Assembly (NCBI GenBank): GCA_000237975.1
Contig: CP003179.1
Coordinates: 3,316,270-3,380,269 of the forward strand
Source: Sulfobacillus acidophilus DSM 10332
Lineage (GTDB): Bacteria > Bacillota > Sulfobacillia > Sulfobacillales > Sulfobacillaceae
Length of the DNA: 64,000 nt
Direction: 5' to 3'
In this document: piece after piece, positions 878-8,143 of the stretch
How positions within the stretch are numbered: position 1 is the stretch's first letter
How the letters are laid out: every line of letters starts with the position of its first letter
The notes under the pieces: generated by a model
What the model saw: the letters and a program-made list of their open reading frames with translations, nothing else
Database searches by the model: none
Told to the model about the DNA's origin: nothing
Position numbers and translations under genes: made by a program

Positions 878-1034
878 CCCCCTGGGCCCGGGGATCCATC
901 CGATGCGCCCGGCCCTCGGTAAGCCAAAGCCAAAGCGGCGACGTCGCCGGGATGTCGAGGGTTGACCCCTTCGCCACCCGGCCGGTTTTAACGACCGTCG
1001 TCCCCGCCAGCCGTTCCAACGATAGGGGCTTCAT
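878..1034 (-). pseudogene. Out-of-frame 5' end of the methyltransferase gene
   Basis: An ATG at 1032-1034 follows a strong GAGGAGGG ribosome binding site at 7-8 bases. It opens a frame beginning MKPLSLERLAG, with a hydrophobic beta-type stretch (PLWLWLTEG). This frame runs without a stop into the G6 tract at 872-877. There the sense of the protein continues in the next frame with VEVIRAPEVYPL. The composite resembles a small cupin-like or cyclic-nucleotide-binding-like barrel in front of the methyltransferase domain, but that fold is inferred. It overlaps the end of the ispH remnant by 47 bases. Confidence 0.55.
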
Positions 1035-1500
1035 GATCTGGTCCCTCCTCTTCGGTTGCTTGTGCCCATTGCGTGAGCCGTTGAATGACGCCACGAGTTA
1101 ATCGGCTCGGCGTTGATGAGCCCGCCGTGATCGCAATCCGGCGAAATCGGCTCCAGTCGTACTGCGTCAAGTCATGGGCGGAGTCCACGCGAAATGCCGG
1201 GATACCGCCTTGGCGCGACGCGACCTCCACAAGCTTTTTGGTATTATTGCTGCGCTCGTCGCCGACAACGACCACTGCGTCGACCCGGCGACTGACGTCA
1301 TATACTGCACGCTGCCGTAACTGGGTAGCCGGGCAAATTTCGTTAAACACGATAACCGACGAATACCGGGCACGAATGGCATCAACCACATCTTGGGTAT
1401 CCCATTGACTCAGAGTCGTTTGGGTCACCCACTATCGGTGTTTACGCTTACGAAGGCCAATGTGCGCGCAATCCGGCGGGGGCAACGAGCGTCCGTCTTC
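988..1500 (-). pseudogene. ispH: IspH (LytB) remnant, C-terminal half only
   Basis: About 146 residues match the C-terminal half of 4-hydroxy-3-methylbut-2-enyl diphosphate reductase, the last enzyme of the MEP isoprenoid pathway. Visible marks are the TQTTLS active-site segment, the third iron-sulfur ligand in EICPATQLRQ, the VVVGDERSNNTKKL strand and the AGSSTPS segment. The N-terminal half, with the first two cluster cysteines, is missing. Just upstream, another frame carries TLAFV, which normally directly precedes TQTTLS, so a short out-of-frame insertion or rearrangement lies at about 1428-1455. The adjacent upstream gene stops at 1603, leaving no room for the missing 150 residues. It cannot encode an active enzyme. 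Confidence 0.8.
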
Positions 1501-1602: not shown

Positions 1603-1911
1603 TTACACAAATCCAAAATAGCGTTTGGCATCGTCCAACATCATCGACGGATCCCAGGGCGGCGACCAGACCACATTGACGTTCGCCTCTTTGACACCGT
1701 CCAGAGCCATCAGCCGCTCGTAAGTGCCCTCTTTAATGTAGTTTGTCGCGGGACACCCCGGTGTCGTCATGGTCATCACCAAATCGATGACCCCGTCGTC
1801 CTTGATGTCAATACCGTAGATCAGTCCCAAATCGACGATATTGTACCCCAATTCGGGATCAATCACGTCTTTAAGCGCTTCGCGGATCACATCTTCTGTC
1901 AGCTGGCTCAT
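1603..1911 (-). CDS. SufT/PaaD-like DUF59 (MIP18) iron-sulfur assembly protein
   Basis: The 102-residue protein is a single MIP18/DUF59 domain. It has the family DPELGYNIVDLGLIY segment and the TTPGCPATNYI loop with the conserved cysteine. Stand-alone family members (SufT, PaaD-like) help mature iron-sulfur proteins. The start ATG overlaps the stop of the upstream membrane-protein gene (ATGA, 1908-1911), so the two are translationally coupled. That suggests a role in loading metal cofactors into products of this respiratory cluster; this last point is inference. Confidence 0.85.
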   Translation of the reverse strand: MSQLTEDVIREALKDVIDPELGYNIVDLGLIYGIDIKDDGVIDLVMTMTTPGCPATNYIKEGTYERLMALDGVKEANVNVVWSPPWDPSMMLDDAKRYFGFV

Positions 1912-3257
1912 CTTTTTGAACCTCCCCCATTCTTAACCGCCGGGACGGCCGGCGAACCCTCGGCCATGCCCAAATCCGGTTCCTGACCGTGCCGAACGTG
2001 CCATAAAGCCCGTGCAATATCTAATGTGGCAAGCAAGGTCCCCAGCATGCCGACTTGAAAGAGCCATTCGCGTCTTAGCGCCAAGCCGACCGCCGCGACC
2101 ACCACCGCCACAAAGTAAACGACGTAAGCCGGCTCATCCCGCGATTCCCGGACTAAATCCTGCACCCGGGGGGTTCGTTGCCGCCCCATTTTCTTGCCGT
2201 ACCGCTCGATCCACGTGAGAAACGGCAAAATTTTATATAACTGGGTCAGCCCCAGCCCCCCGAGCCACCCGTAGAGCCATAACAAGACCATCGCGGCGGC
2301 CCATTGGTGCCATTGGTGCAAGATGCCCACGATAGCGGTCAGAATCAGGGCGATCCCCAACGTGGCCAATGCCCACCGGGCGTTTCGCGCGTTCAATTCC
2401 ATTTGTCGGCGCTTGCGGTCACGGTACAGCCGGACCATATCCACCAAAAACATCGCCAATCCAAGCCATCCGAGCGTCCAACCGAGCTGATTAAGCCAGG
2501 ACCAGGGACCCCATTGCGCAATCCAGGCCAGAAGCACGCCGAATCCTGTGAGCCCTAAGACCGCCCAGCCCCAAAATCCTCGATGTTCCGGCGCCAGGGT
2601 GAACATCGCCAAGAGTTTGTAAGACACTCCCAACGCCGTCAGCGTAAGCCAACCCACAATGCCGCCGATCACATGCGCGACCAACCCTTGACCGAAAACC
2701 GCCGGTCCCACCACCGGCCCTAACGCGCCGGGACTTTGGAAACCGATGGCGAACGTGAGGCCGAGCGATACGGTCAACAAGAGGAAAAAAAGCCCGCCGG
2801 CAATGAGCCATTCGTGAAAGGCCCAAGGCCAGGCCCGTCCCAACGTCATGCCCAAATTAACCAGGGCCAGGATTACCCCCAGCACAATCAAGGTGCCGCC
2901 GGTCGGCAAGGTCCACATTGTACCGAAGAGCACGCCGCTTGGAAGGGACAAAAATCCGACCAGCAAGAAGGCAAGCCCTCCCAAAATCAAGGCCAATGTC
3001 CATCCGGTCAGCGCTTGGCTTGCCAACTCCTGAGTGGTTAGCACCGGCACGAATTGTTGTAAGGCCCCTAACATGAGGATTGTCATCCACCCGATCGTCG
3101 TCAGGTGAACGGCCACCAGCACCCAACCGGTCGCCAGGCCGGCCAAGGGATCGGAAATGCCCGTCACCCATAACAACTCCGCCAGCACCAACGATCCCAA
3201 GGCGGCAATAAAATAAGGTACGCTCCAACGGGAGACTTTCACGCCGTACAATGCCAT
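1908..3257 (-). CDS. Polytopic membrane protein, heme-copper oxidase subunit I/NnrS-like (copy 1)
   Basis: The protein has about 450 residues and roughly 11-12 hydrophobic segments, with little soluble sequence. Three helices carry histidines in the pattern expected of heme-ligating helices of CcoN/NorB/NnrS-type proteins: VHLTTIGWMTILMLGALQQ, AHVIGGIVGWLTLTALGVSY and LWLYGWLGGLGLTQLYK following HQWHQW. It is a paralogue of the gene at 4179-5450, with the same order of motifs. The start is GTG 3258-3260 or the adjacent ATG at 3255; AAGAAGG lies just upstream. A CRP/FNR-type palindrome and a CATACT -10 box precede it. Heme or copper binding is not proven by the sequence; an NO- or oxygen-related role is inferred from neighbours. 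Confidence 0.65.
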   Translation of the reverse strand: MALYGVKVSRWSVPYFIAALGSLVLAELLWVTGISDPLAGLATGWVLVAVHLTTIGWMTILMLGALQQFVPVLTTQELASQALTGWTLALILGGLAFLLVGFLSLPSGVLFGTMWTLPTGGTLIVLGVILALVNLGMTLGRAWPWAFHEWLIAGGLFFLLLTVSLGLTFAIGFQSPGALGPVVGPAVFGQGLVAHVIGGIVGWLTLTALGVSYKLLAMFTLAPEHRGFWGWAVLGLTGFGVLLAWIAQWGPWSWLNQLGWTLGWLGLAMFLVDMVRLYRDRKRRQMELNARNARWALATLGIALILTAIVGILHQWHQWAAAMVLLWLYGWLGGLGLTQLYKILPFLTWIERYGKKMGRQRTPRVQDLVRESRDEPAYVVYFVAVVVAAVGLALRREWLFQVGMLGTLLATLDIARALWHVRHGQEPDLGMAEGSPAVPAVKNGGGSKR

Positions 3258-3278
3258 CACCTTCTTTAACGTGACTTG

Positions 3279-3320
3279 AGTATGGCGCTTTCAGGGCGAA
3301 AACATCGTGATCCAGATCAC
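3279..3320 (-). promoter_or_regulatory. CRP/FNR-type operator with class II-spaced -10 box
   Basis: GTGATCCAGATCAC at 3307-3320 is a perfect palindrome of the CRP/FNR superfamily type (GTGAT-N4-ATCAC). On the minus strand a CATACT hexamer lies at 3284-3279. This places the palindrome centre about 41 bases upstream of the predicted transcription start, the classic class II activator position. It precedes the membrane-protein/SufT pair. Confidence 0.6.
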
Positions 3321-3530
3321 GGCCGGCGAAATTCCGTGGGGGTCAAGGTGCCCGTCCCTCGCAAAAAGAGCGGAACAAAAGATTTTAATGCCTAAACGTC
3401 CAAGTTCTCGCCGCCTGGTCGCGACATTCCTCCTCTAGGCGGTCCCATCGGTGAGGCATGCTAACCAAACGCGTGCAAGGTACCCTTAGGGCATCCTGCA
3501 CGCGACCGAACGGCGTTTCCGTATCTGAAG

Positions 3531-3812
3531 TTAGGCGCGATATTGGTTCCGGGCGCGATATTGCATGGGGGCTCGCCGCGGATAGGCCACGGGTACACTC
3601 CAAATATGCACGAGACGCGTAAACGGCGAAACGGCAAAGAGCAAAAACGCCAATTCAATGTGAATCTGGAACAACAGCGGTACATGCGCCATCAATGCCA
3701 CTCGGGGGTGAAGCGTCAAGAGACCACGCACCCAAGGTCCGACGGTATGGCGATATCCGTACGGCCCATAATCATTGTCGTGAATACCGATGGCCGCATC
3801 TTCCGGACTCAT
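3531..3812 (-). pseudogene. narI: narI remnant (nitrate reductase gamma subunit, C-terminal part)
   Basis: The 93-residue frame matches the last third of NarI, the heme b membrane subunit of respiratory nitrate reductase. Visible marks are YGYRHTVGPWVRGLLTLHP, VPLLFQIHIELAF and PFTRLVHIWSVPVAY, the last containing a heme-ligand histidine region. An in-frame stop lies directly before the ATG at 3812, and the first helices are absent. No narG, narH or narJ is visible nearby. The C-terminus contains a short direct duplication (CAATATCGCGCC twice, 15 bases apart). It is best read as the decayed tail of a former nar operon. Confidence 0.75.
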
Positions 3813-3949
3813 CCACCCTCAGGAGATAACCATAATCAGCCAATTTATAAGAGGGGGACACGGAGAGCCGGAAAGAACGGCCCCTTGGAGCGAGGTAAAG
3901 CCTCTTCCTCTGTTGCCGATTGCCGGCCCAGATATGCCCCCTACTGTAG

Positions 3950-4138
3950 GCGGTTAAGCATCAAACTATTTTGGCGGTTTTTGACGCGTTACCGTCCGGT
4001 CATTCGGCCCTTCTGATCAATGACCACGATCCCAAACCTCTTTTATACCAATTAGAGGCCGAGCAGCCCGGCGTATTTTCGGTCGAATATCAAGAACGTG
4101 GGCCGGAACGATTTGCCATTTTGCTCACGCGGAATTAG
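3950..4138 (+). pseudogene. DUF2249 domain protein, probably frameshifted at its 5' end
   Basis: A 62-codon open stretch encodes most of a DUF2249 domain: HQTILAVFDALP, then INDHDPKPLLYQLEAE and FSVEYQERGPERFAILL. These small proteins are often found beside denitrification, hemerythrin and heme-copper-oxidase-like genes. The frame opens after a TAG at 3947-3949 and has no ATG with a ribosome binding site. The preceding segment of the family (DMPPTV) is readable in the next frame immediately upstream, so one indel near 3945-3955 probably broke the gene. A TTG at 3971 is the only alternative start. Confidence 0.55.
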
Positions 4139-4157
4139 AATCGAGCTTCCCCTCTTG

Positions 4158-4176
4158 GCGCCTTCGGGCGCTTTTT
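4158..4176 (+). terminator. Rho-independent terminator with UUCG loop
   Basis: GCGCC-TTCG-GGCGC followed by TTTTT, 20 bases after the DUF2249 stop. It reads correctly on the plus strand and indicates that this short gene was a separate rightward transcription unit. Confidence 0.7.
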
Positions 4177-4178
4177 GC

Positions 4179-5450
4179 TTATCCGGATGTCGATAAAGGA
4201 CGCGGCTTTAGCTTACGCACAAGGGCCACCAAAATAGCGACCGTCAGGATGATCACGCCGAGTCCCAAGACGGCTACGCCTGTCCGGGCGACGTCAACGG
4301 CAGAAATCGTCCACCCGACGACCCACAAAGTGACCCCGGGAATGGTCGACGCGGCCACGACAAATGACCAGCGAGGCGGAAAAATGTCGGTCAGGCGTGG
4401 CATCTTGCCTTGCCCATGGACGTGGGAATAGCGATGAAGCCACAACAAAAAGGCGATGATTTTCTGCACGAAACCTAAAAAAGAGAGACCGACCCACCCC
4501 ACGACATAGGCGACCAATATCGCACGCCACCACTGAACCACGTTTAGCCACGTCATGAGGCCTCCGATCCAGGCAAAACCGGCAAAAAGCCCACCGACTG
4601 CCGGTAACCATAAGGCCGGTTCATGGCGAAAAAGACGGTTAGCCCGGACCAGTCCCAAGATATCCCAGGCCCAAGTTCCCCAAGCCCCCATTGCCAATAG
4701 CCAGGCGCCGATAAAGCCTGCCCGCCACCCCATAAAGCCGCTGACGATGCCGGTGATCACGGCACTTTGTTGTAAACCATACGTCCATTGCCACCACTGC
4801 GGTTGTTTGCGCGACGGCAAAAACATCAGCCATAAGCGATAGCTCACACCCATCAACAAAAATCCCAGCCAGCCGCCGAGTCCCACGCTAAAGTGCACCC
4901 AAAGCGGTTTAAGAGGCGTCACGGGAAGGCCAAGATATCCCCACGCAAGCCAGCTACCCATGCATGCCGTCAAAACCAAATAGGCGACCGCCGTCGCGAT
5001 AAACAGAAGCGGTATGGTCCAGATCTTTTGTCTCACCAGACGGCTTGCGATAAGAACGGCAAAGCCTAAGATCGACAATAAAAGCAAACTTCCCCCGGCG
5101 GCAAGCCAGAGCGGCCGAGCACGCACCAATCCCCCAATAAACCCGGCTAATCCGGCAAGATACCCTATCCCCTGGGGCCATATCCACCGGGGCGATATCG
5201 GCGGCTGATTCGTCAGCACCGGCGTCAATTGATATAAGGCGCCCATCATGACCAAGGTTAAAAAGCCCAAGGTGAACCCGTGTACCAATGCGACGACGGG
5301 CCAGGACGAAGGGGGAAGCTCGACTATCGTCGAGCCCGACGTGAACACCACGGCGAGCCCTATTGCCAGCAGGCCAAGGCCGGTGAGAAAAAACACAACG
5401 GGAACGACCAATCGGGCGGTCCGGTCGGTATGGATCTGTCCTACCCGCAT
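4179..5450 (-). CDS. Polytopic membrane protein, heme-copper oxidase subunit I/NnrS-like (copy 2)
   Basis: The protein has about 423 residues and is hydrophobic throughout, with about 11-12 transmembrane segments. It shares an ordered set of motifs with the protein at 1908-3257: a His helix (VHGFTLGFLTLVMMGALYQL), a second His helix (VHFSVGLGGWLGFLLMGVSY) and a late helix ending FVQKIIAFLLWLHRY. ATG 5450 is preferred over ATG 5471 because GGGAGG lies 8 bases upstream of it. The gene begins just downstream of the broken cupin gene and was probably co-transcribed with it. The function is not known; a terminal-oxidase-like or NO-related membrane protein is a reasonable inference. Confidence 0.6.
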   Translation of the reverse strand: MRVGQIHTDRTARLVVPVVFFLTGLGLLAIGLAVVFTSGSTIVELPPSSWPVVALVHGFTLGFLTLVMMGALYQLTPVLTNQPPISPRWIWPQGIGYLAGLAGFIGGLVRARPLWLAAGGSLLLLSILGFAVLIASRLVRQKIWTIPLLFIATAVAYLVLTACMGSWLAWGYLGLPVTPLKPLWVHFSVGLGGWLGFLLMGVSYRLWLMFLPSRKQPQWWQWTYGLQQSAVITGIVSGFMGWRAGFIGAWLLAMGAWGTWAWDILGLVRANRLFRHEPALWLPAVGGLFAGFAWIGGLMTWLNVVQWWRAILVAYVVGWVGLSFLGFVQKIIAFLLWLHRYSHVHGQGKMPRLTDIFPPRWSFVVAASTIPGVTLWVVGWTISAVDVARTGVAVLGLGVIILTVAILVALVRKLKPRPLSTSG

Positions 5451-5477
5451 AGGCTGGCCTCCCTCTTCCATAAGGGT

Positions 5478-5788
5478 CTACAGATCTTTTAACGCCCCCA
5501 CCAACGCTAACGCCAGCGCGGACGCGGCCAACCGATGGCGGCTCTGGCGGGGAAAAATGCGATAATCGCCGGGTCCTAACCGGACGATTGCGCCCTCCAC
5601 TTCGGTTTCGATCTGCCTTCTACGACCCATATCCACTCGGTCCGATCGGGATGGGTATGTGCGGGAAAAGATGCGCCGGCCTCAAACTTCATCAGCTTAA
5701 CCGCCCCTCCCGATCGCTCGACGAGAATCTTTTGCGATGTCCCAAATTTGCCTGGCTCAAACGGTCCCCATCGGTCGTCTGTCGCCAT
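5478..5788 (-). pseudogene. Cupin-domain protein, frameshifted
   Basis: The first frame gives a cupin start: MATDDRWGPF, then FEAGASFPAHTHPDRTEWI with the metal-binding HTH pattern, and VVEGR. It then runs into a stop. One frame away the same domain continues as IETEVEGAIVRLGPGDYRIFPRQ followed by a Leu/Ala-rich tail, ending at TAG 5478-5480. The break is near 5615-5635. GGAGGGGG lies just before ATG 5788. If repaired it would be a roughly 100-residue ChrR/anti-sigma-type single-domain cupin. It lies between CRP/FNR-type sites and the membrane-protein gene. Confidence 0.7.
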
Positions 5789-5849
5789 ATTCATCCCCCT
5801 CCGAATCTTATCTCTATCCCCAACCGTAGGGAACCGCCCCGTCCCGTAC

Positions 5850-5865
5850 TGTGATCCTCATCACA
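5850..5865. promoter_or_regulatory. CRP/FNR-type palindrome in divergent promoter region (site 1)
   Basis: TGTGATCCTCATCACA matches TGTGA-N6-TCACA exactly. It lies about 62 bases upstream of the leftward cupin start and 126 bases upstream of the rightward Rieske start. A TACGGT hexamer sits at the class II distance on the minus strand but is a poor -10 box. Confidence 0.55.
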
Positions 5866-5909
5866 CTAAAGGGCCCGCCCGTTTTACTCCCCTTGGCATC
5901 CCGAAAATG

Positions 5910-5951
5910 GTGACCGGGATCACGATAGGGGCCCGGCTCGAGCGAGATACT
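5910..5951 (+). promoter_or_regulatory. CRP/FNR-type palindrome with class II-spaced -10 box (site 2)
   Basis: GTGACCGGGATCAC at 5910-5923 is a near-perfect GTGAT-N4-ATCAC palindrome. GATACT at 5946-5951 stands at exactly the same distance from the palindrome centre (29.5 bases) as CATACT does at the 3307-3320 site. It drives the Rieske/hemerythrin/NuoF genes. Confidence 0.55.
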
Positions 5952-5990: not shown

Positions 5991-6329
5991 ATGACAACAT
6001 CCGCTCCCTGGATTCGGGCCTGCCGGGTGGACGATATTGACCCGGCCATCCCCTACTTTGTCGAAATCAATAACCAGCCCCTGGCCTTATACCGAGTGGG
6101 AGACGATGTCTTCGCCACCGACGACACCTGTTCTCACCAGGAGGCGTCGTTATCCGAGGGCAGCTACGCCGGATATATCGTCACGTGTCCGCGACATGGC
6201 GGCCAGTTTGACATCCGCACCGGTCAGGCGGTCAAAATGCCGGCCGTGAGTCCGATTACGGTGTTCCCGGTTAAAGTCGTCGATGGCGATGTCTACGTCG
6301 CCGTCGATAAATCGGGGCCTCTAGACTAA
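5991..6329 (+). CDS. Rieske-type [2Fe-2S] ferredoxin
   Basis: The 112-residue protein is a single Rieske domain of the NirD/BphF type. It carries the two ligand boxes CSHQEASL (C-x-H) and CPRHGGQF (C-x2-H). There is no membrane anchor or signal peptide, so it acts as a cytoplasmic electron carrier. ATG 5991 is chosen because AAGGAGG lies at 5979-5985; a longer upstream frame has no such signal. It leads a rightward set with the hemerythrin and NuoF genes, which could pass electrons from NADH to an unknown acceptor. Confidence 0.9.
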   Translation: MTTSAPWIRACRVDDIDPAIPYFVEINNQPLALYRVGDDVFATDDTCSHQEASLSEGSYAGYIVTCPRHGGQFDIRTGQAVKMPAVSPITVFPVKVVDGDVYVAVDKSGPLD

Positions 6330-6431
6330 GTAGCCCCCCGACACCACACGGACATCGGAAAGTGAACATCAAAGCAAGGCCATAGACACCGATATTGCCA
6401 ACACCAGTTTACGAAAATGGAGGGGAGATTG

Positions 6432-6899
6432 ATGGACCTCATTGCTCGCTTGACCGAAGAACATCAGGACTACGTCATAAAGCTTTCGACCTTGGCCGAA
6501 ACCATTGAGGGGATCCGGATTAATGGTCGCGGCGATTATTTCATCGAGACTCTAGATGGATTGTTGGTGCCTTTAACCAGCCAGTTAGACGACCATGCCC
6601 GTCGGGAAGAGGATTTTCTTTTTCCCCGCATCTTAGAGAGGGCCCCTGACAGTCCCATACCGGTCATGTTAGAGGACCATGAGGCCATTCGCGAAGCGAG
6701 TCAAGGGTTCGCCAGGGGGTATCTCTTGTGGCGGGACGGCGATGACGACGCCTTTAACCGGTGGGTGACATTTGCCGAAACCCTAAGGGGCACTTTTTCG
6801 GCGCACATGCAAAAAGAAAATCTGATTTTGTTCCCGCTGGCCCGACGTGTACTGAGTGCCGATGAAATCGCCCGCTTGGTCCCGGACGAGTCGCGGTGA
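6432..6899 (+). CDS. Hemerythrin/HHE cation-binding domain protein
   Basis: The roughly 155-residue helical protein has spaced metal-ligand histidines and carboxylates. These are EEHQDY near the start, DDHARREEDFLFPRI in the middle, MLEDHEAIR, and AHMQKENLILFPL near the end. Such proteins bind a di-iron centre and sense, store or detoxify O2 or NO, or help repair iron-sulfur clusters (as RIC/YtfE-like proteins do). ATG 6432 is preferred over ATG 6417 because GGAGGGG lies directly before it. The stop overlaps the GTG start of nuoF (GTGA). Confidence 0.88.
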   Translation: MDLIARLTEEHQDYVIKLSTLAETIEGIRINGRGDYFIETLDGLLVPLTSQLDDHARREEDFLFPRILERAPDSPIPVMLEDHEAIREASQGFARGYLLWRDGDDDAFNRWVTFAETLRGTFSAHMQKENLILFPLARRVLSADEIARLVPDESR

Positions 6900-8143
6900 G
6901 TACTATGCATATTCTCTTGCGCCATCGGGACATTCCCGACCTCTATCGTCTCCCCGTTTACCAAGCCCACCGGGGATACGAAGGCTTACGCCAAGCACAC
7001 CAGATGGCTCCGGCCACCGTCCGCGATGTGGTGACCCGCTCAGGTCTTCGCGGTCGCGGCGGAGCGGGATTCCCTACCGGTCGTAAATGGAGCTTTCTGG
7101 ATTACCAGGCCCCGGTGCGCTATTTCGTGGTGAATATCGACGAGGCCGAACCCGGAACATTTAAAGATCGGGAATTAGCGGAGCATAATCCGCACCAAAT
7201 CATCGAAGGCGCCTTGATTGGCGCGTATGCCATAGAAGCGCCGGCGGCTTTCATTTTTGTGCGCGGCGAACTCCTGACGGCCTATGAAGTCTTGGTCCGT
7301 GCCCGTGACGAGGCCCGGTCCGCCGGCCTCATCGGCCCCTCTACGGCCGAAGTGTACATTTATCGAAGCGCCGGCGCCTACATCTGTGGCGAAGAGACGG
7401 CCCTTTTGGAATCGCTCGAAGGCAAACGCGGCCATCCCCGCATTAAGCCGCCGTTTCCGGCTCAATCCGGGCTTTATAACCAGCCCACGGTGGTAAACAA
7501 TGCCGAAACCGTCGCCAACTTGCCGCCCATTCTATCCAATGGGGCCGACTGGTACCGTCAATGGGGGACGGAAGCATCTCCCGGGATCAAAATCTTTTCC
7601 TTGAGTGGGCGGGTCATGCGACCGGGTAATTACGAGCTGCCGCTTTCCACTCCCTTACGGACCTTAATTGAAGACTACGGAGGAGGAGTTGGCCCAGGAC
7701 GTCATGTCAAGGCGGTCATTCCCGGCGGAAGCTCGGTTCCGTTACTGCCGGCCGAGCAACTGGATGTTTTACTGGACTACGAATCGTTACAAGAAGCCGG
7801 TTCGATGCTGGGATCAGGCGGTGTCGTCGTGCTCGATGATCAGGTCTGTATCGTGCGCGCCGCCGCACGCCTGATGAAATTTTACCGCACCGAATCATGC
7901 GGCAAATGCACCCCGTGTCGCGAAGGCACCTATTGGATGGCGGATATTCTCGATCGCATCGAACGAGGTGAAGGAACCTCTCGCGATTTCGACCTGTTGC
8001 CCGACATTGCCGACAATGTCGGCGGAAAGTGCCTGTGTCCATTGGGCGATGCGTCGCTACCGTTCATGCTCAGTGCCATGAGACATTTCCGAGAGGAATT
8101 CGTCGCTCACATTGACCGCCATCGTTGTCCCCTGGCCGGCTAA
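6896..8143 (+). CDS. nuoF: NuoF-like NADH-binding flavoprotein (complex I 51-kDa subunit homologue)
   Basis: The 415-residue protein has the NADH/FMN-binding GRGGAGFPTGRKW segment near residue 55, the GAYICGEETAL segment, and a C-terminal [4Fe-4S] site (ESCGKCTPCREGTYWM plus the later CLCPLGD cysteine). In complex I this subunit oxidises NADH and passes electrons to iron-sulfur centres. No nuoE, nuoG or other complex I genes are near. It may serve as a stand-alone NADH dehydrogenase feeding the Rieske protein; this is inference from the operon. The GTG start overlaps the hemerythrin stop by four bases. Confidence 0.9.
   Translation: MSTMHILLRHRDIPDLYRLPVYQAHRGYEGLRQAHQMAPATVRDVVTRSGLRGRGGAGFPTGRKWSFLDYQAPVRYFVVNIDEAEPGTFKDRELAEHNPHQIIEGALIGAYAIEAPAAFIFVRGELLTAYEVLVRARDEARSAGLIGPSTAEVYIYRSAGAYICGEETALLESLEGKRGHPRIKPPFPAQSGLYNQPTVVNNAETVANLPPILSNGADWYRQWGTEASPGIKIFSLSGRVMRPGNYELPLSTPLRTLIEDYGGGVGPGRHVKAVIPGGSSVPLLPAEQLDVLLDYESLQEAGSMLGSGGVVVLDDQVCIVRAAARLMKFYRTESCGKCTPCREGTYWMADILDRIERGEGTSRDFDLLPDIADNVGGKCLCPLGDASLPFMLSAMRHFREEFVAHIDRHRCPLAG

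Follow-up and report, generated by a model that had tools for sequence, protein, structure and literature searches.

DNR of Pseudomonas and NnrR of the alphaproteobacteria are cysteine-less activators of the CRP/FNR family that respond to nitric oxide (NO). They bind a palindromic box with an N4 core (TTGATN4ATCAA, or TTGcgN4cgCAA for NnrR; PMC1274295) and have as targets nirK, nor and nnrS-like genes, hemerythrin genes (dnrN) and COG4309/DUF2249 genes; DUF2249, as COG4309, sits with norB (PMC1274295). In Thermus thermophilus, DnrT (with DrpA/DrpB), a CRP-like activator without an iron-sulfur (Fe-S) sensor, drives nitrate respiration and controls DUF2249 proteins (PMC6282519). The class II promoters of FNR and CRP in Escherichia coli carry the operator at the standard position of -41.5 and the -10 box at -12 to -7 (PMC7349173), with GTGA as the CRP half-site. 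Here we describe a set of palindromic operators in Sulfobacillus acidophilus DSM 10332 that shares with the DNR and NnrR systems the N4 core, a predicted cysteine-less CRP/FNR activator and targets of the same kinds, and with the E. coli promoters the operator position and the GTGA half-site; in common with DnrT it has a predicted CRP-like activator that lacks an Fe-S sensor, and DUF2249 genes among the targets. The box itself, GTGATC-NN-GATCAC, differs from those of DNR and NnrR, while the candidate regulator lacks the FNR cysteines and both targets and lineage differ from those of E. coli. Three of the operators lie in the window, by which we mean the whole stretch of 64,000 nucleotides analysed (positions 3,316,270-3,380,269 of a 3.47-Mb contig; the genome has 3.56 Mb in two contigs).

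A first-pass annotation of the window had reported three CRP/FNR-type palindromes, beginning at 3307, 5850 and 5910, and all three are present and exact. GTGAYN4ATCAC gives five strand-matches in the window (three sites), whereas 100 dinucleotide shuffles gave 0.20 on average and never more than 2. The [CG]ATACT boxes that had been placed 29.5 bases from the centres of two palindromes are likewise there; the geometry is however not limited to this pair, as the third palindrome has its own box, TACGGT, which had been missed. A -10 box of the form NAnnnT is therefore found at 29.5 bp from the palindrome centre at 3/3 window operators:

3307-3320: operator 1, GTGATCCAGATCAC, centre 3313.5; predicted to drive the minus-strand genes of a membrane protein (1908-3260) and a SufT-like protein (1603-1911)
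3279-3284, minus strand: CATACT, the -10 box of promoter 1, which begins 29.5 bp from the centre of operator 1; predicted transcription start site (TSS) 3272
5850-5865: operator 2, TGTGATCCTCATCACA, centre 5857.5; faces the minus-strand cupin/membrane-protein operon
5823-5828, minus strand: TACGGT, the -10 box of promoter 2, which begins 29.5 bp from the centre of operator 2 and faces the cupin gene; predicted TSS 5816
5910-5923: operator 3, GTGACCGGGATCAC, centre 5916.5; predicted to drive the plus-strand Rieske-hemerythrin-NuoF genes
5946-5951, plus strand: GATACT, the -10 box of promoter 3, which begins 29.5 bp from the centre of operator 3; predicted TSS 5958

With the -10 box set at -12 to -7, the 29.5-bp offset places the operator centre at -41.5. 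This class II geometry is well supported for each window palindrome, and the predicted TSSs that derive from it fall about 15-35 bases before start codons; for at least two of these codons a good ribosome-binding site can be read from the sequence. Judged by the 29.5 bp between the activator site and the start of the -10 box, the three would thus be class II promoters.

In the whole genome, GTGAYN4ATCAC occurs at 17 sites, four of which lie within 7.4 kb of one another (P 7.5e-5 under random placement). Coding or non-coding status was judged at all 17, and the degenerate pattern is a mixture in which the intragenic sites, about nine, resemble chance. The perfect palindrome GTGATN4ATCAC behaves differently, with six of its seven genomic copies being intergenic (P~1e-5 by chance, given that about 11% of the window lies outside open reading frames of at least 100 amino acids). 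Two of these six belong to window promoters, while the others are spread over the chromosome:

838407: perfect site between a DUF488 and a DUF2249 gene
931792: perfect site lying 60 bp ahead of the gene for a third membrane-protein paralogue
2589013: perfect site flanked by a cupin gene and an ABC-transporter operon
3314787: perfect site at a gene resembling copper nitrite reductase, 1.5 kb away from the window

The clustering at respiratory promoters for which a genome scan had been proposed holds for the perfect palindromes, which are not placed at random and stand at nitrite/NO and respiratory promoters, but not for the degenerate GTGAY pattern as a whole. When the site at 5910 is added to the six intergenic perfect sites, all seven have an NAnnnT hexamer 29.5 or 28.5 bp away in the direction of the gene. 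A relaxed scan of this genome for the composite of operator and -10 box returned 12 matches, mostly without clear sense, which we did not count as regulon members. An imperfect intergenic site, GTGATGTCCGTCAC (L023:12217-12230, G000:C1:2592216), lies 3.2 kb from the perfect site at 2589013.

Conservation was followed in 40 related genomes, with maps drawn for 40 regions. The S. acidophilus genome itself not being counted, exact GTGATCNNGATCAC sites are present in 30 of the 40 and the membrane-protein family in 29. Among 71 exact sites in the relatives, 27 have a gene of this family within 5 kb, while about 0.5 would be expected by chance from the fraction of sequence involved. The region maps place sites at genes for the membrane protein, DUF2249, SufT-like, cupin, hemerythrin, Rieske and regulator proteins, and sites adjoin narHJI at locus L113 and narH at L104. 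Composite sites accompany SufT-like homologues at L114, L116, L117, L118 and L142. The two genomes of genus g7 (G006, G015) jointly lack the regulator, the membrane proteins and exact sites. Genomes in named records were also scanned with the membrane protein, singly and as an alignment, and this yielded nothing usable.

In order to align promoters, 45 site-gene pairs from 18 loci of many genera were oriented toward the gene, the sites having been picked by gene family and not by their -10 box. NAnnnT stands at the operator offset of 29.5 bp (+29) in 31/45 pairs, as compared with about 2/45 at each other offset (nominal binomial P 8e-32 for pairs that are phylogenetically non-independent), and the spacing is kept across families of the order. 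TTGACA was not seen in the -35 columns of these aligned promoters. The composite pattern was matched 74 times in 33 genomes and the reversed-pattern control twice; such controls are not composition-fair for palindromes, so we put the weight on the offset profile and on the rank of the half-site among all 1024. Over the 364 kb that surround 30 regulator orthologues, GTGAT at N4 spacing ranks 1st of 1024 (18 occurrences vs a mean of 0.5) and GTGAC 2nd, a ranking made without any choice of genes. The first-pass annotation had held the shared spacing hard to ascribe to chance; its two matches taken alone are only suggestive, and it is with the other genomic sites and the relatives that the argument becomes decisive. 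The palindromes almost certainly belong to a class II CRP/FNR regulon.

It had been proposed to look for a CRP/FNR-family gene outside the window, and the genome has two, of which a single one is intact. It encodes a 216-amino-acid protein at about 815.6 kb of the chromosome, downstream of a cytochrome b/bc-type gene cluster. Matches to PF00027 (57.4 bits) and PF13545 (66.4 bits), both above cut-off, place the protein in the CRP/FNR superfamily; with no cysteine at all, it lacks the 4Fe-4S cysteine cluster of FNR proper. DNR (3dkw) is a weak relative of the regulator profile (43.6 bits). The phosphate cassette with which CRP binds cyclic AMP contains Arg82/Ser83, and the region in the regulator, GEIVGIAGLWDGSGYPATARA, seems by eye to lack the R-S pair. 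In CRP, R180/E181/R185 read GTGA, and the recognition helix here, R178-E179-x3-R183 (RE..SR), fits this half-site and is invariant in seven regulator orthologues. A co-evolution rule ties these helix positions to G3 and A6 of the box, i.e. to GTGA (PMC1274295). In about 13 relatives, as counted by eye from coordinates, orthologues lie inside the regulon clusters or close to membrane-protein genes, and these cluster-linked proteins align with the intact regulator at 46-59% identity. The regulator alignment, run against named records, brought up orthologues in Sulfobacillus and in Bacillota metagenome-assembled genomes, most at 50-60% identity. The operator, its geometry, its conservation across genera and its genomic linkage to the regulator are direct results of these computations; judged from the sequences, the 815.6-kb protein is very probably the reader of the operators.

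The second CRP/FNR gene is found beside a flavohemoglobin gene (hmp), and both are frameshifted:

L025:5550-6853, minus strand: hmp, frameshifted, seemingly without an internal part of the reductase domain
L025:6690-7352, plus strand: second CRP/FNR gene, divergent from hmp, frameshifted

The state of the pair suggests decay of an NO-dioxygenase locus, and no operator site is found between the two genes.

The proposal that one activator controls the whole module is supported by the genomic sites, the single intact regulator and the conserved spacing, but the module was drawn too narrowly, because the regulon also has nirK, DUF2249/DUF488 and the third membrane-protein paralogue elsewhere in the chromosome. 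The genes at the window operators, and the nirK-like gene to their left, are the following:

L020:10758-11801, minus strand: lipoprotein resembling copper nitrite reductase, encoded 1.5 kb to the left of the window
1603-1911, minus strand: SufT-like Fe-S assembly protein (PF01883, E 1.7e-20)
1908-3260, minus strand: membrane protein with 12 helices and the heme-copper-oxidase fold, a paralogue of 4179-5471; the ATG at 3257 is its probable start
4179-5471, minus strand: 12-helix membrane protein with the predicted fold of heme-copper-oxidase subunit I/NorB
5478-5788, minus strand: cupin gene, first of the operator 2 operon, frameshifted in the assembly; stop position read from the sequence
5991-6329, plus strand: Rieske [2Fe-2S] ferredoxin-like protein (PF00355)
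6417-6899, plus strand: hemerythrin, RIC/YtfE/DnrN-like, below curated cut-offs
6896-8143, plus strand: NuoF-like NADH:acceptor oxidoreductase (PF01512, PF10589)

Against TIGR02376 the NirK-like protein reaches 173 bits, short of the cut-off of 296, but it contains HSIDLHAA, YHC...LH....GM, FHIIGA and THSF, which we take to be the Cu-ligand pattern. The GTG called as the start of its gene falls within the operator, and translation must therefore begin further in. NirK and NO dioxygenase have been reported for S. acidophilus (PMC4378227).

Neither window membrane protein matches a Pfam or NCBIfam model. The AlphaFold2 model of 4179-5471 (predicted local distance difference test, pLDDT, 92.5) resembles CcoN of cbb3 oxidase (Z 35) and NorB of NO reductase (Z 33.5), and a profile of the membrane proteins recovers CcoN in the PDB at E 1e-6. 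The 12-helix fold thus predicted is that of NnrS and of the large subunits of heme-copper oxidases and NO reductases, but among 27 homologues only H64 (helix 2) and H193 (helix 6) are invariant, so the usual set of heme and CuB ligands is incomplete; despite the fold match, these proteins do not carry the full histidine set of a heme-copper-oxidase catalytic subunit. Some homologues have weak Pfam COX1 and NnrS matches; for NnrS (PF05940) there is no match in the window proteins and two homologues reach E 0.02 at best. An NO-handling role like that of NnrS may be inferred from the company of the genes. Together with L022:7857-9137, the two window proteins belong to an oxidase-fold family with only two invariant histidines and no Pfam family that is widespread in the order.

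The cupin gene changes frame near its middle, from frame 1 (MATDDRW...WVVEGR) to frame 0 (RRQIETEVEG...), and would be either a pseudogene or an assembly error; the label derives from the first-pass annotation and a similar locus at L023, not from a domain search. The Rieske-NuoF pair is kept at about 70% identity in two relatives (L117:11785-13653 and L120:3521-5113), and a composite operator (11345) lies upstream of the pair in L117. Another open reading frame of the window, 988-1428 (-), resembles, in our own reading, a C-terminal piece of IspH/LytB.

How these operators work can be read in several ways. Chance palindromes in a G+C-rich genome, with coincidental spacing, might be suspected from the 17 occurrences of the degenerate pattern, about half of them intragenic; but homologous promoters in many genera hold the -10 box at one offset (nominal P~1e-31) and GTGAT heads the 1024 half-sites, so that this explanation is negligible, and we rejected it as refuted by the comparative data (offset profile, composite pattern and half-site rank). 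The protein at -41.5 could also be a repressor covering the -35 region, since a site there could block polymerase and the geometry alone would not give the sign of control. However, with no -35 consensus in the right columns the promoters would be weak unaided, and an offset fixed to 1 bp across genera is expected for polymerase contact and unneeded for a steric block, which makes repression improbable. It is just as improbable that the second CRP/FNR protein reads the operators: it has the same RETVSR recognition residues and adjoins the gene of an NO-inducible flavohemoprotein, but the frames of both genes are broken in the assembly and the cluster-resident orthologues of relatives align with the intact regulator.

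The inducing cue is less firmly fixed than the operator. The same activator and operators might answer to low oxygen or to the respiratory redox state, in an FNR-like role without an Fe-S cluster, with nitrite reductase and hemerythrin as part of a microoxic respiratory set. The position of the regulator gene behind the cytochrome b/bc-type cluster, the sites flanking aa3- and bd-type oxidases in relatives (L113, L134) and the respiratory flavour of NuoF, Rieske and oxidase-fold proteins speak for such a cue; yet the commonest site-bearing members (DUF2249, RIC-like hemerythrin, SufT-like and NirK) are nitrogen-oxide or Fe-S repair genes, and a 4Fe-4S sensor would need cysteines, of which the regulator has none; we regard such a cue as possible but unlikely. 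By analogy with DNR and NnrR, a nitrogen-oxide signal (NO or nitrite) is somewhat favoured over oxygen as the main cue, because of nirK, the nar genes in relatives and the RIC-like hemerythrin, DUF2249 and SufT-like genes; with the nirK site at 3314787, the gene content would fit an NO response of the DNR/NnrR type.

Several points weigh against a nitrite/NO regulon under a single activator. A cue from oxygen or from respiration in general would also suit the sites at aa3- and bd-type oxidases, and whether the cysteine-less regulator senses heme or NO is not readable from its sequence. The organism's own second CRP/FNR gene and hmp are both broken, with no site between them. Of the degenerate sites, about half fall inside genes and probably carry no meaning, and one site of this genome fits at 28.5 bp only, as does one divergent promoter of another.

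Altogether, the explanation that accounts best for these data, to which we assign a probability of roughly 0.8, is a nitrite/NO-handling regulon of class II promoters under a single activator. The 216-amino-acid CRP/FNR-family protein would bind as a dimer to operators of the consensus AnC-GTGATC-NN-GATCAC-GnT centred at -41.5, and, by class II activation, would recruit RNA polymerase to promoters with a -10 box in which no -35 box can be recognised. This would switch on a dispersed set made up of NirK, three oxidase-fold membrane proteins, DUF2249/DUF488 and the cupin/ABC locus, along with SufT-like Fe-S assembly and Rieske-hemerythrin(RIC-like)-NuoF; binding by the 815.6-kb protein, activation rather than repression and the nitrogen-oxide signal are what we infer. 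A fuller picture, tentative and rather doubtful as a whole, would have electrons pass from NADH through NuoF and Rieske to the di-iron hemerythrin in order to reduce NO or repair Fe-S centres, beside NO-defence oxidase-fold proteins that lost their catalytic histidines, all under a cysteine-less CRP/FNR sensor specific to acidophilic Sulfobacillales. In this picture, the non-enzymatic conversion of nitrite to NO in acidic habitats would account for the retention of the regulon by strains that have no nitrate reductase.

In the literature searched, we found no description of a CRP/FNR or NO regulon of Sulfobacillus. We conclude that the operators define a lineage-specific, FNR/DNR-like class II activon predicted to serve nitrite/NO handling and Fe-S repair in the Sulfobacillales. 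It provides a concrete, testable nitrite/NO regulon for the bioleaching genus Sulfobacillus and its order, in which DUF2249, DUF488, the oxidase-fold membrane proteins and the Rieske-hemerythrin-NuoF set would be linked in a single physiological task. Fixed to 1 bp across genera, the distance from operator to -10 box makes an unusually clean natural data set on class II activation outside the Proteobacteria.

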